From: Rikenellaceae bacterium
GTDB taxonomy: Bacteria > Bacteroidota > Bacteroidia > Bacteroidales > Rikenellaceae
Reading direction: 5' to 3'
DNA length: 64,000 nt
Assembly: GCA_015060005.1 (NCBI GenBank)
Contig: SUZI01000001.1
Location: 1-64,000, forward strand
How positions within the stretch are numbered: the first letter of the stretch is position 1; each line of letters opens with the position of its first letter. Below, piece after piece: positions 10,351 to 21,719 of the stretch. The notes under the pieces were generated by a model. The model ran no database searches, was not told the origin of the DNA, and saw only the letters and a list, made by a program, of their open reading frames with translations. A program made the translations under genes and the position numbers.

Positions 10351-11742
10351 TTAGTAACCAAGGCGATCCAAACAAGCTGAAGCGTTCTCAACCTTCTGTG
10401 CTGCATCTGGGTGACGCAAGCCCTTGTCAATCATATACTGCAATGTAAGCTCGGTACGGTTGGTGAACAAACCATCGAGGTAAGGAGCTGCGAAGTCGCT
10501 CTCACCATAGTGCCAATCACCGAAGTATACGTGCATCTGCTCCATAGTATCGAATGAGTATGGGTGGTTGAGCAAACCAGCACGACGAATCATATCGTGC
10601 ATCCAAGGAGCATTCATCTCGAAGTAGTTGTTAGGTGCACCTGCGATAGAAGGGCCAATGATGTGTGAGAGGTTGTCAACAGCGATGTCGATGTATGCTG
10701 CGTACTGAGTTGGGGTAATCTGGTCGTGCCACAAGAGGAAGCACATAGGAATCTGACCCTTATAGAGCTCAGCAGAGCGACGCAAAGACTCCCAAGAGAA
10801 GGTCTGAAGGATAACCTTACCGTTAGTGTTACCTACGTTAACCTTACCGTTTACATAGAAAGGAGTGTTGTCAGCCTCAGGAGCTGTGATTACGTTCCAA
10901 CCAAGGCGGTCCAACTCGTCGTATACCATCTGCTCGAAGTTAGATGGGTTCAACCAAGACTCCTTGAACTCGAGGTAGATACCTGGGCGGTTGCCTGTAT
11001 CCTGTGGGTCGTCAACATACTCGAAAGTATACTTAAGGCTAGTGTGTGGGTTAGCTGGATCCCAAGTACCTGTCAAAGTGTAAACACGGTCGCCATTAGC
11101 ATCACGCTTAAGCATCTTACCCTCGGCGTACATAATCTGATCCTCGAGTGAAGATACATACTGCTTCTGTGTAGAGAAAGCCTCACGAGCCTGCTCAGGC
11201 ATATCCTCGTTGAACCAAGTACCTGCGTCGAGCATCATCAACTCCTCGTAGAAATAAGACTTAGTGTAGAATGGGGTGAAGCTCAAACGGTCAGCCTTAA
11301 CCTGTGCCTCAGCCTCAGCCTTAGTCATACCTGCGTGGTCCATATAGAACTGAACACGTGTCTCAGGTACTGTCTCACCAAATACGTTCTCGATGTTAGT
11401 AGTACGCTTCAGGTTGTCATCGTGGTTAGCCAAGATAACACCATCCTTTGAGCACTGGAGGTCTGACTCCAAATAGTCAGCACCAATCTCACGAGCCCAA
11501 CGCCAAGCAGCCTCGGTCTCCTCTGGTACCCAGAACACTGAACCACGGTGTGCTACTACTGCCATATCGGGCACATAGTCGCGAACCCTCGCCATCTCTG
11601 GAGAGATGTGCTTTGTCTCGATGCTTGCTGCATCACGATCGATATTGGTTACATCCTGCTTCTCACAAGCGATGAGAGCGAAAACCATAACGAATGAAAC
11701 CAACGACATTGCAATTGTCTGCAAAAGATTTTTAGTTTTCAT
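10351..11742 (-). CDS. Glycerophosphodiester phosphodiesterase-family lipoprotein
   Basis: GDPD motifs VAHRGSVFWVPEETEAAWRWA and ADYLESDLQCSKDGVILANHDDNLKRTT; lipobox ALIAC. Confidence 0.88.
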   Translation of the reverse strand: MKTKNLLQTIAMSLVSFVMVFALIACEKQDVTNIDRDAASIETKHISPEMARVRDYVPDMAVVAHRGSVFWVPEETEAAWRWAREIGADYLESDLQCSKDGVILANHDDNLKRTTNIENVFGETVPETRVQFYMDHAGMTKAEAEAQVKADRLSFTPFYTKSYFYEELMMLDAGTWFNEDMPEQAREAFSTQKQYVSSLEDQIMYAEGKMLKRDANGDRVYTLTGTWDPANPHTSLKYTFEYVDDPQDTGNRPGIYLEFKESWLNPSNFEQMVYDELDRLGWNVITAPEADNTPFYVNGKVNVGNTNGKVILQTFSWESLRRSAELYKGQIPMCFLLWHDQITPTQYAAYIDIAVDNLSHIIGPSIAGAPNNYFEMNAPWMHDMIRRAGLLNHPYSFDTMEQMHVYFGDWHYGESDFAAPYLDGLFTNRTELTLQYMIDKGLRHPDAAQKVENASACLDRLGY

Positions 11743-11788
11743 ACAATTATTAAAATATTAGGTTAAAAAATAAGTATTTTGTTATATG

Positions 11789-17402: not shown

Positions 17403-17597
17403 CAAAAATAAAACGTTTTTATTTAATAACAAAATTTTTTGAGGAAAAAATAACATTATTTATTCATTAATTAATTAATTAAAATTTTGTAAAACAAGAG
17501 CAATTCAATTATTAATCAGGCAGTTAGCACGATAACACCAGCGATAAAATTTTATAACAAAAATGTTTAGTTTCGTTTTGATTAATATATTTTTTAT

Positions 17598-17605
17598 TAT
17601 ATTTG
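17598..17605 (+). promoter_or_regulatory. Bacteroidota-type -7 element (TATATTTG) for glpR
   Basis: TATATTTG located 39 bp upstream of the ATG at 17644. Confidence 0.55.
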
Positions 17606-17643
17606 CGATTGAAAAGAGTATTTTTTATCAAAATGAAACTACT

Positions 17644-18408
17644 ATGACTAAAGAAGAACGCCACGAACTAATACTTGAAACGCTCATCAAACACGAATCT
17701 GTGCAAGTATCGGACCTCTCTACATTGCTGGAGGTGTCAACTGTGACGATTCGAAAGGATTTAACAGAATTAGAGAAAGAAAACAAACTTTATCGTAGCC
17801 ACGGTAAGGCTATCCTGATAAATCCATATATCAACAACCGCTCGGTAAACGAGAAAGAGAAGCTCGCCACAGAGGAGAAGAATATAATAGGTAAGGCTGC
17901 GGCGGCGATGATAACCAAAGATGACTCTATCATCATAGCCTCGGGCACCACCGTGCACGCCTTGGCTCGCAACATACGCCCTATCCACAAGCTGACTGTC
18001 ATCTCGGCTTCGTTGCAGGTGTCGGAGATTTTGGCTAACAACGAGGCGATAGAGATTATACAGCTCGGTGGCACTCTGCGTCATAGTTCTAACTCGGTAG
18101 TGGGTAAGTATGCCGAGGGCATCCTGTCGAGTTTCTGTTGCAGTAAGCTCTTCTTGGGTGTGGATGGTATCGACTTAGAGTTCGGTATCACGACAACCGA
18201 CGTGAGAGAGGCTGACCTGAACAAGGAGATGATGCGTATAGCACAGAAGAGTATCGTGCTGGCAGACTCATCGAAGTTCCGCCGCCGAGGATTTAGTAAG
18301 ATTGCAAACATTGAGGAGGTCGACATAATCATAACCGACAGCGGCATACCCGACTCGATAGCCCGCCGCATAGAGGAGATGGGTATTGAGCTGATAATAG
18401 CACAGTAA
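17644..18408 (+). CDS. glpR: DeoR-family transcriptional regulator, probable GlpR
   Basis: MTKEERHELILETLIKHESVQVSDLSTLLEVSTVTIRKDLTELEK HTH; DeoR sensor domain; divergent from glpABC. The 17563 ORF start lies upstream of the probable promoter. Confidence 0.88.
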   Translation: MTKEERHELILETLIKHESVQVSDLSTLLEVSTVTIRKDLTELEKENKLYRSHGKAILINPYINNRSVNEKEKLATEEKNIIGKAAAAMITKDDSIIIASGTTVHALARNIRPIHKLTVISASLQVSEILANNEAIEIIQLGGTLRHSSNSVVGKYAEGILSSFCCSKLFLGVDGIDLEFGITTTDVREADLNKEMMRIAQKSIVLADSSKFRRRGFSKIANIEEVDIIITDSGIPDSIARRIEEMGIELIIAQ

Positions 18409-18493: not shown

Positions 18494-18566
18494 AACCTTT
18501 CAGTTTTTAGCTCTACCTTGTAAGCGGTAGATTCCCATCGCCTTGCAGAGCAAGTCGGGGAATGAC
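18494..18566. repeat. REP-like structured intergenic element, copy 1
   Basis: CCTTTCAGTTTTTAGCTC…GGTAGATTCCCATCGC-CTTGC-AGA-GCAAG-TCGGGGAATGACG; shares flanks and outer stem with the copy at 18760-18826. Confidence 0.65.
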
Positions 18567-18575
18567 GGGCTTGGC

Positions 18576-18606
18576 AATTCAAAATTCAAGATTCAAAATT
18601 CAAAAT
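18576..18606. repeat. Degenerate 7-bp tandem repeat (TTCAAAA)n
   Basis: TTCAAAATTCAAGATTCAAAATTCAAAATT; the same unit occurs at 812-840 and about 21998-22018. Confidence 0.6.
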
Positions 18607-18679
18607 TGAGAAAATACCTTTTAGTAATGTGGGTAGTAAAAAAGCTACCCGCGTTATGGGGAGAGGGAGGTTTAGGAAG

Positions 18680-18736
18680 GATAAGGGAAACTAAGGGCTA
18701 TTAAGGGAAATTAAAGGATACTAAGGGGTACTAAAG
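18680..18736. repeat. Degenerate AAGGGAWAYTA intergenic repeat tract
   Basis: AAGGGAAACTAAGGGCTATTAAGGGAAATTAAAGGATACTAAGGGGTACTAAAG; related tracts at about 21954-21978 and (reverse) 60450-60518. Confidence 0.5.
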
Positions 18737-18759
18737 TCGCAATAAAAAAATAGTTTTTA

Positions 18760-18826
18760 CCTTTTAGTTTTTAGTTCGTATAAGGTAGATTCCCATCGCC
18801 TAACCTTTGGTTAGTCGGGGAATGAC
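18760..18826. repeat. REP-like structured intergenic element, copy 2
   Basis: CCTTTTAGTTTTTAGTTC…GGTAGATTCCCATCGC-CTAACC-TTT-GGTTAG-TCGGGGAATGACG. Confidence 0.65.
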
Positions 18827-18960
18827 GTTAATATAATGAGTAATGAGTAGAGAGTAATTTTTTTGGTGGATGAAAAAATGTGAGAAAAAATTGTTGTTGG
18901 TGGGTAAGAGAAAATTGAGTTTTTGGTGGTTTTTTGAGCGGTGTGAGGTGGTGTAAGGTG

Positions 18961-19039: not shown

Positions 19040-19085
19040 ATTTTGCCCTCTCCGATAAGTTATACTTATTGGGGGGGGGTAAAAT
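19040..19085 (+). promoter_or_regulatory. 5' leader hairpin containing a G9 homopolymer
   Basis: ATTTTGCCCTCTCCGATAAGT-TAT-ACTTATTGGGGGGGGGTAAAAT folds into a long stem whose 3' arm is the G9 tract at 19071-19079. Confidence 0.5.
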
Positions 19086-19154: not shown

Positions 19155-21719
19155 ATGAAAAGACTGTTTTTTGTAGTTGTTGCGGCTGTGGCTATGCTCG
19201 CAACATCTTGTTCAAAGGACGACACCTCTACTGTTGTAGGTGGTGAGAAGTCGACAGTTACTTTCGCTGTGGCAGCACCTGAGCTTGCAACTCGTGCTGA
19301 GTATGGTGATGGTTACACTGCAACACACCTTACTTGGGGTGTTTACGACGCTAATGGTAACTACCTCGAGAACCTCAGTGCTGAGGGTTTGGTAGGTGTT
19401 GATTTCCCAACAGGCTCACTCTCAACTTCAGTGAAGATTGACCTTGTTAATGGTAAAGAGTATAAGGTTATCTTCTGGGCAGGTGCTGAGGGTGCTCCTT
19501 ACACAGTAGACTTTGAGACAAAGAAGATGACTGTTAACGATGCTCTGGTGGCAAATGCTGAGGCTTACGATGCATTCTACAAGTATCAGGCTGTAAGCAC
19601 AGTTGAGGGCCCACGCTCGGAGACTGTTACATTGACTCGTCCATTTGCTCAGCTCAACATCGCTACTGCTGACACAGCAAAGGCTGCTGATGGTGGCTTG
19701 GTAGTAGACCAGACTCAGGTTGTCGTAAATGCTTACAAGACTTTGGACCTGGTTGATGGCACAGTAGCTGACGAGGTAGAGCGTACTTATACTTTCGCTG
19801 CTATCCCTGCAAACAACGCTAACGGTTACAACAAGACTATCGAGGTAGGTGGTAAGTCATACGACCTCTTGTCGATGAACTACCTGTTGGTTAATGCAAA
19901 GGAGGTAGAGAAGGTAACATTCACTGTAAAGCAGACCTCTAACGGTTTCACAGAGGCGTTTGAGTTTGAGAACGTGCCTTTCCAGCGTAACTACAAGACC
20001 AACATCATTGGTAATATCTTGACAAGCACACTCGACTTCGAGATTACTATCGATCCTATCTTTGAGGAGTATGAGTATGGTTACGTTGTTACTGAGGAGG
20101 GTGGTCAGACCATAGCTACAGTTTCTACACCATCGGGTTTGGCACAGCTTGCAGAAGATATCAATGATGGTAAACTTGAAAACGATACAAATATCGTTTT
20201 GGATGGCGATATAGACCTCTCAGCTCTTACACGTGCTGCTACATCAAATTGGACTCCTATTGGCACACCAGATGAAGCTTACAGTGGCACTTTCGATGGT
20301 AAGGGTTTCTCTATCAAGAACCTTAATATCGTTGAGACTGAGGCTAAGGAGGGTAAGGCATACATCGGTTTCTTCGGCTATGCAAAGAATGCAGAGATTA
20401 AGAACGTTGTATTTGAGAATGTAAACTTGAACATTCCTTGTTTGGATATCGACCACAGCCAGGGTCATATCGGTGCTGTTGCAGGCTCATTGGAGGGTAC
20501 TTCTACAATCGAGAACGTAACTGTTAAGGGTGATATCAAGGTTTATGCTACACAGGATGCTAACGGTGCAAGCCGTGTTGCTGTTGTTGCTGGTGGTAAC
20601 TCTTACGGTAATGTAACTATGAAGAACGTTCACGTTATTGCTAACGAGGGTAGCTACCTTATCGCAAATAACAACACTGGTGCTTTGGCTGGTCAGTTGC
20701 AGGGTAAGAACGTATTTGAGAACTGTTCTTCTAACATCGACGTAACTGTAAATAAGTTCTTCGCAGGTGGTATCATCGGTTTGGCTGCAGGTGACTCTAA
20801 GTTCGTAAACTGCCACACTACAGGTGACGTTGCTGTTGTCGCAGGTCGCGAGGGTCGTGCACACGACCAGTACCGTGTAGGTGGTATCGCAGGTGGTTGG
20901 GCAGATGGTGCAAAGAATGTATGTACACTTGAGAACTGCTCTTACTCTGGTAAGATTTCTGGAAAGAATTCTGATGGCTCAGTTGCTAACCCACTCGATT
21001 ATATGGGTTATGTAGGTCGTGGTTACACTTTGAACGGTTGCCAGGGTAGCAAGGTTGTTATCGATGGCACTGAGTTCGTTCAGAAGTACAACACTGCTGC
21101 TGAGGCTGGTATCTACACTATCAACGGTTGTACTCCTGTTTCTACAGCTGACGAGCTTATTGCAGCATTGGAGGCAAACGAGGGCGTATACCTTTTGAAC
21201 GATATCAAGATTGAGCCTGCTGCAATGAGCAATGCTTATGGTACAACAGGTATCAATGTAAAGAACGGTCAGACTATCGATGGTGCTGGTCACACTCTTA
21301 ACATCAAGGGTGCCGGTGGTACTTGGGATTCAGGTATCAACACTACCGGTGGTATCATTCGCAACATTACTGTTACCGGCTCTTTCCGTGGTATCTTCAT
21401 CAACCACACAAGCTCTCACTCAGAGAAGGTTGTTTTGGAGAATGTAACTCTTAGAGATGTAACTTACACTATCTCTTGCGACCAGGGCATGTACCAGACT
21501 ATCGAGGCTAATAACTGTTCTTTCTTCGGTTGGACTTCATTCGCTAAGACTGCAGGCGAGGCTAAGTTCGTGGACTGCTACTTCGGCCAGGGTTCAGGTT
21601 ACAAGTACTGCCGTCCATACTCTAACACTGAGTTCGTACGCTGTACTTTCTGCCCAGGTTACGCAGTTGATACAACTCGTGCAACAGTTACATTCACTGA
21701 TTGTATCTGGGAGGAATAA
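19155..21719 (+). CDS. DUF6562-like / GLUG-repeat surface lipoprotein (fimbrillin-like N-terminus, beta-helix-like C-terminus)
   Basis: Lipobox LATSC; N-terminal FAVAAPELATRAEYGDG…LTWGVYDANGNYL; GLUG-type repeats (GTFDGKGFSIKNLNI…AYIGFFGYAKNAEIKNVVFENVNL; VGGIAGGWADGA…). Confidence 0.72.
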   Translation: MKRLFFVVVAAVAMLATSCSKDDTSTVVGGEKSTVTFAVAAPELATRAEYGDGYTATHLTWGVYDANGNYLENLSAEGLVGVDFPTGSLSTSVKIDLVNGKEYKVIFWAGAEGAPYTVDFETKKMTVNDALVANAEAYDAFYKYQAVSTVEGPRSETVTLTRPFAQLNIATADTAKAADGGLVVDQTQVVVNAYKTLDLVDGTVADEVERTYTFAAIPANNANGYNKTIEVGGKSYDLLSMNYLLVNAKEVEKVTFTVKQTSNGFTEAFEFENVPFQRNYKTNIIGNILTSTLDFEITIDPIFEEYEYGYVVTEEGGQTIATVSTPSGLAQLAEDINDGKLENDTNIVLDGDIDLSALTRAATSNWTPIGTPDEAYSGTFDGKGFSIKNLNIVETEAKEGKAYIGFFGYAKNAEIKNVVFENVNLNIPCLDIDHSQGHIGAVAGSLEGTSTIENVTVKGDIKVYATQDANGASRVAVVAGGNSYGNVTMKNVHVIANEGSYLIANNNTGALAGQLQGKNVFENCSSNIDVTVNKFFAGGIIGLAAGDSKFVNCHTTGDVAVVAGREGRAHDQYRVGGIAGGWADGAKNVCTLENCSYSGKISGKNSDGSVANPLDYMGYVGRGYTLNGCQGSKVVIDGTEFVQKYNTAAEAGIYTINGCTPVSTADELIAALEANEGVYLLNDIKIEPAAMSNAYGTTGINVKNGQTIDGAGHTLNIKGAGGTWDSGINTTGGIIRNITVTGSFRGIFINHTSSHSEKVVLENVTLRDVTYTISCDQGMYQTIEANNCSFFGWTSFAKTAGEAKFVDCYFGQGSGYKYCRPYSNTEFVRCTFCPGYAVDTTRATVTFTDCIWEE

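Follow-up and report, generated by a model that had tools for sequence, protein, structure and literature searches.

Two hairpins between a regulator gene and a surface protein gene

What are the two hairpins that lie between a gene for a DeoR-family regulator and a gene for a DUF6562/GLUG surface protein, and what put them there? The window, as we call the whole stretch of 64,000 nucleotides that was analyzed, carries them as two copies of one frame with different inner stems. An initial annotation had described both; we confirmed them at that place, with the second copy running to 18827, one base further than first marked, and both folded as described when treated as single-stranded DNA. The window contained the pattern common to the two copies twice, whereas 100 shuffles never produced it. 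The features are as follows, where G000 is the genome of the window and other G numbers are relatives in its genus.

17563..18408, + strand: upstream gene, DeoR-family regulator (context)
18526..18837, + strand: 313-bp block enclosing both copies, repeated at G000:C10:12919-13223 with 95.5% identity
18526..18567, + strand: hairpin copy 1, reading GGTAG, ATTCCC, AT bulge, CG, C.T mismatch, CTTGC-AGA-GCAAG, CG, GGGAAT, then GACG (CGTC on the - strand)
18542..18554, + strand: covarying part of copy 1 (inner stem and loop)
18564..18567, - strand: CGTC tag of copy 1, of the tag class in PMC3733652
18784..18827, + strand: hairpin copy 2, frame as in copy 1, inner stem CTAACC-TTT-GGTTAG
18800..18814, + strand: inner stem and loop of copy 2
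18824..18827, - strand: CGTC tag of copy 2
19155..21719, + strand: downstream gene, DUF6562/GLUG surface protein (context)

We think it likely, judging from the sequences compared below, that the two hairpins belong to a YGTC-tagged palindromic element as its non-autonomous copies, and that this element has a stand-alone GIY-YIG nuclease as its partner. The two copies are not independent of each other, since the block at 18526-18837 recurs elsewhere in the genome, and part of the copy number thus comes from larger duplications.

The element forms an intergenic family whose inner stems covary

G000, an Alistipes genome of 1.98 Mb in 16 contigs, holds more than 30 copies of the element. We counted copies genome-wide by pattern searches and by covariance-model searches: a strict pattern found 21 copies in G000, a looser one 34 and the covariance model 32, while a reversed-pattern control found none across that genome. 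All 32 full copies were intergenic, in keeping with the REP-like, dispersed repeat first proposed; the further copies that this proposal needed exist. Covariance-model matches occurred in 18 of the 180 genomes of the genus, among them G104 (37 copies), G094 (34), G029 (27) and G071 (18). Carriers among named relatives were nearly all Alistipes sp. or Rikenellaceae metagenome assemblies, mostly from ruminant and deer gut. A scan of IMG/VR for copies on phages found none.

Nearly all of the 64 distinct sequences had a common fold, made of ATTCCC, a 2-base bulge, CG/CG, one mismatch, an inner stem of 4-6 bp and a 3-base loop. The inner stems included CTTGC/GCAAG, CTAACC/GGTTAG, CTCAC/GTGAG, CACGC/GCGTG, TTGGC/GCCAA, CTGC/GCAG and GGCAAC/GTTGCC. 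The search pattern put no constraint on the inner stem, so selection did not create its covariation; the pattern did fix the outer stem, whose pairing is uninformative on this point. Among 40 distinct gap-free 37-mers, 98.8% of cells were paired, and two-sided changes were seen at all five inner-stem pairs, with 44 two-sided and 2 one-sided cells of 520. None of 500 shuffles reached the covariation score. The suggestion, drawn from the window pair, that both inner arms change together and so maintain the structure was thus borne out, and it extended to the other copies.

The asymmetric internal loop ATCGC/TCG had been called unchanged. A loop region was indeed present in the other copies, but it varied, with AT replaced by TT, GT or TG and C by T, and it is better parsed into an AT bulge of 2 nt, followed by two C-G/G-C pairs and a single C.T mismatch. 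The idea that a protein may bind the conserved inner loop fits with a GA...GA frame round the inner hairpin that recurs in other YGTC families.

We also observed a companion unit of 45-48 bp (e.g. TTTTGTCTATTCCGCCCTCCGCCAGCTCCACACAGTCGGGGAATGACG) in tandem behind some full copies, sharing with the element its right half only (L174 14654-14835; L171 9794-9876; L199 4130-4170; L136). At seemingly orthologous places in G000 and G104, the inner stems differed (L179 1663-1701 versus L193 9977-10013; L177 11528 versus L194 9100), by either whole-stem replacement or re-insertion.

A stand-alone GIY-YIG nuclease gene sits between inverted copies

In G053 and G088, two inverted copies of the element enclose a gene for a 92-residue GIY-YIG protein. 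A search with this protein found its sole relative in G000 at C2:11413-11685, enclosed exactly by inverted copies at 11352-11390 (-) and 11749-11784 (+), with the CGTC tags outermost. The single relative in G104 likewise lay between inverted copies, bringing the element-gene-element arrangement to four genomes. Nine genomes encode a nuclease that shares 64% identity or more with the G053 protein, and seven of them carry the element; in the remaining two, G038 and G125, a different YGTC palindrome adjoins the nuclease gene. No relative was found at E<=0.001 in G029 (27 copies) or G071 (18 copies), so copies persist without the gene or the gene is unassembled there.

The nuclease is a single-domain GIY-YIG protein of ~90 aa (PF01541, E 2.6e-17), a Pfam match that leaves little doubt about its fold. 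The active-site residues Y, Y, R, E and N were kept in all 65 nucleases; our selection pattern demanded all of these except N84, and this active-site-type residue was nonetheless conserved in 65 of 65. An NCBIfam search with the nuclease gave no match. The closest solved structure by sequence was a UPF0213 GIY-YIG protein (PDB 1ZG2, E 1.3e-4), yet it is distant.

Cassettes are present or absent at the same sites in related genomes

A cassette of element, gene and element lies between guaB and guaA in G053 and G088 and is absent from G104, G059, G069 and G056, where the intergenic regions are short. Behind spoT, at spoT-yihY, G106, G046 and G094 have a cassette whereas G049, G058 and G059 do not; over the compared part of spoT, G049 is identical to G106. 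This comparison covers the genomes whose spoT end the motif search located. In Azospirillum lipoferum, the nuclease gene separates sufB from sufC.

Single copies also differed between G000 and G104, with boundaries obscured by low-complexity sequence. We found no target-site duplication and, between these two genomes, no exact single-copy empty site; their orthologous intergenic regions are heavily rearranged. A guaA-like match in G000 (G000:C14:67733-68179) contains one internal TAA.

Related nucleases are paired with tagged palindromes in other bacteria

We then considered nuclease loci irrespective of the palindrome. A YGTCAT palindrome lay within 300 bp of the gene at 29 of 30 Alistipes nuclease loci; the 99 matches at these loci amounted to 5.54/kb near the gene versus 0.14/kb farther out (40-fold), with 0.9 matches expected in shuffles. 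Across Bacteroidota, 25 of 29 nuclease loci had YGTCAT palindromes (4.04/kb), and scrambled tags reached at most 0.15/kb. Tagged palindromes extended to several further phyla, at nine of 12 nuclease loci in other named records, namely those of Neisseria gonorrhoeae, A. lipoferum, Sinorhizobium meliloti, Neorhizobium, Shinella, Planktothrix, Photobacterium, Aeromonas and Spirosoma; the loci of Novosphingobium, one Sphingobium and Rhizobium tumorigenes had none. The N. gonorrhoeae homologue, 47% identical, sits among CGTCATTCCCGCG copies (dRS3 type). Within the genus, each nuclease lineage had its own type of palindrome (ATACCC, ATTGCC, ATCCCC, ATTCTGA or ATTGCGAG), always behind C/TGTC. The tag letter, C or T, tracked the nuclease tree with 8 changes versus 19.4 when shuffled, a signal confounded by host relatedness.

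On a Planktothrix plasmid (NZ_LR882964.1, L239), the GIY-YIG gene and TGTCATTCTGAG palindromes have an MmeI-type restriction gene on one side and DISARM drmA on the other. Two N. gonorrhoeae records of ~2.17 Mb (NZ_CP119142.1 and NZ_CP119140.1) are labelled plasmids but look chromosome-like.

The nuclease could instead be a freeloader, a homing-type gene that lands at or near easily broken palindromes which spread by other means. Homing endonucleases of mobile elements are found among the GIY-YIG nucleases (PMC1564403), and element carriers without the nuclease gene exist. Against this, every nuclease lineage has a palindrome variant of its own, with a tag letter that follows the nuclease tree, and in four genomes the gene is framed symmetrically by inverted copies with tags outward; we consider this explanation unlikely.

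GIY-YIG single-strand nucleases of the Ssn family reportedly recognise a repeated target, NTS, in Neisseria (a 2025 paper), and the Ssn nuclease of N. meningitidis is said to bind a repeated sequence and to alter natural transformation. We take the Ssn family as the closest known system, a lead whose one support here is the gonococcal homologue among dRS3-type copies. Both systems have a small GIY-YIG nuclease and many copies of its own repeat, and the Ssn-type features seen in our set are a ~90-aa single-domain protein and a gene among copies of its own palindrome. The present system differs in its Alistipes host, its palindrome, its cassettes at several insertion sites and its evidence from DNA loops.

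The same homologue, with the reported effect of Ssn on transformation, would fit a host-serving mark, with a nuclease that acts on the repeats to govern how single-stranded DNA is taken up or recombined and not to spread them. The patchy distribution (18 of 180 genomes) and the shifting cassette sites look selfish instead, and as the full account of the repeats we hold this role to be improbable; a host-serving role and spreading are not mutually exclusive.

Loops on one strand point to folded single-stranded DNA

Returning to the element, we asked which strand carries its signature. Read on the CGTC strand, 31 sequences had an apical loop of the form GNA; read on the opposite strand, none did. 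On the CGTC strand, c(GNA)g loops numbered 26 versus 1.35 in shuffled interiors. Palindromes beside nuclease genes were similarly one-sided (17 versus 1 in Alistipes; 20 versus 0 in Bacteroidota). GNA loops with G-C closing pairs form extraordinarily stable DNA minihairpins (PMC4686876). Folded as single-stranded DNA, the CGTC strands of the two window copies gave -10.3 and -10.4 kcal/mol (z -3.9 and -5.0), better than the GTAG strand. Because GNA loops are confined to the CGTC strand and because this strand folds better as DNA, the element probably works as single-stranded DNA, with its CGTC strand folded.

An RNA element (a 3' UTR stabiliser, a terminator or a protein-binding RNA) would account for hairpins that lie close to genes, often downstream, and for a GTAG strand that is sense at 14 of 19 sites between same-direction genes. 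However, G-U intermediates, of which RNA would show more, are almost absent, the GNA loops occur only on the CGTC strand, usually antisense in G000, and an Rfam search returned tRNAs only, with no match for the element. We regard an RNA role as very unlikely.

Placement among known repeat classes

CGTC-tagged REPs were defined as a class by Di Nocera 2013 (PMC3733652), apparently without a dedicated transposase; they include Neisseria dRS3 and Rickettsia RPE-4/RPE-6, and the class was reported from Bacteroidetes. The element resembles them in its CGTC/TGTC tag, AT as the first two stem pairs, short tail, intergenic location, tens of copies and patchy occurrence. An unpaired CGTC and a stem starting in AT were found at all 39 CGGGGAATGACG sites in G000, although the pattern itself requires both; independent support for the tag comes from YGTCAT palindromes beside nuclease genes, compared with scrambled tags. 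In contrast to the class, the hairpin here is compound (6+2+5 or 6 bp) with a bulge, a mismatch and an exchangeable inner stem. The four published families have a stem of 8-9 bp, a loop of 4-5 nt and the tail CCA (PMC3733652), whereas here the stem has 13-14 bp in two parts, the loop is mostly 3 nt and the tail is CTACC. Head-to-tail arrays, called negligible in PMC3733652, occur here, and a nuclease gene is adjacent where that survey found no dedicated transposase. We therefore file the element as a variant inside the CGTC-tagged class and outside its four published families. No paper tying GIY-YIG proteins to REPs was among the literature searched, a scope that did not take in the 2025 Ssn paper. 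From the CGTC class (PMC3733652) and the Ssn lead, the element is therefore best filed, on present sequence comparisons, with a putative kind made of a YGTC palindrome and a GIY-YIG nuclease.

The RAYT/REP (REPIN) system is alike in its small palindromes, single-gene nuclease partner and non-autonomous copies, and differs in that its partner is a Y1 HUH protein instead of GIY-YIG and its tag is on the opposite strand. The initial annotation had likened the form to repeats mobilised by such a RAYT (Y1) transposase, and GGTAG does directly precede the bulged hairpin in most G000 and G104 copies, as GTAG does in RAYT REPs (PMC6006769); however, carriers outside this close pair often have TAGAG, TGGAG or GGAGG there, the nuclease adjoining element copies is a GIY-YIG protein, and a Y1/RAYT gene (PF01797), REP-flanked or otherwise, is absent from G000 and found in only two of the 180 genus genomes, neither an element carrier, which largely refutes a RAYT-associated GTAG REP and leaves it the least credible reading.

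A proposed route of spread for the element

We propose that the CGTC strand, when single-stranded (on the lagging strand at replication, in repair or during DNA uptake), would fold into the hairpin, and that the nuclease would read the YGTC tag and the GA...GA frame and nick the strand there. Repair or strand transfer could then copy the element, or a whole element-gene-element cassette, to new intergenic sites. Inner stems would be free to vary because what is read there is only pairing and loop shape, and an altered arm may pass to the opposite arm through hairpin-templated synthesis. The proposal draws on the family, its covariation, the strand-specific loops, the nuclease gene flanked by inverted copies, and whole cassettes found at a given site in some relatives and not in others; cleavage and copying of the element via the nuclease are what we infer beyond these.

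CGTC palindromes are widespread bacterial repeats that had no mobiliser in the 2013 survey, and their pairing with a 92-residue nuclease bears on this old question. More tentatively, the whole CGTC/TGTC palindrome class, in all its bacterial phyla, might have its missing mobilisers in stand-alone GIY-YIG nucleases. Palindromes and nucleases would then form a second transposition system of the REP type, alongside RAYT/REP, and would act via folded single-stranded DNA with GNA loops. The nuclease pairing, the cassettes with empty sites in relatives and the DNA-specific loops reduce the question to one of cleavage in vitro.

Sequence runs around the copies

Low-complexity runs (AATTCAAAATTC, TTTTTAGTTTTTAG, ACTAAGGG and GAGTAATGAGTAAT) occur at 18580-18780 of the window and round most G000 copies, blurring their edges. 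A run of nine G at 19071-19079, upstream of the DUF6562/GLUG gene, is a possible phase-variable tract, and comparable G runs lie behind some other copies (C2:401k array).
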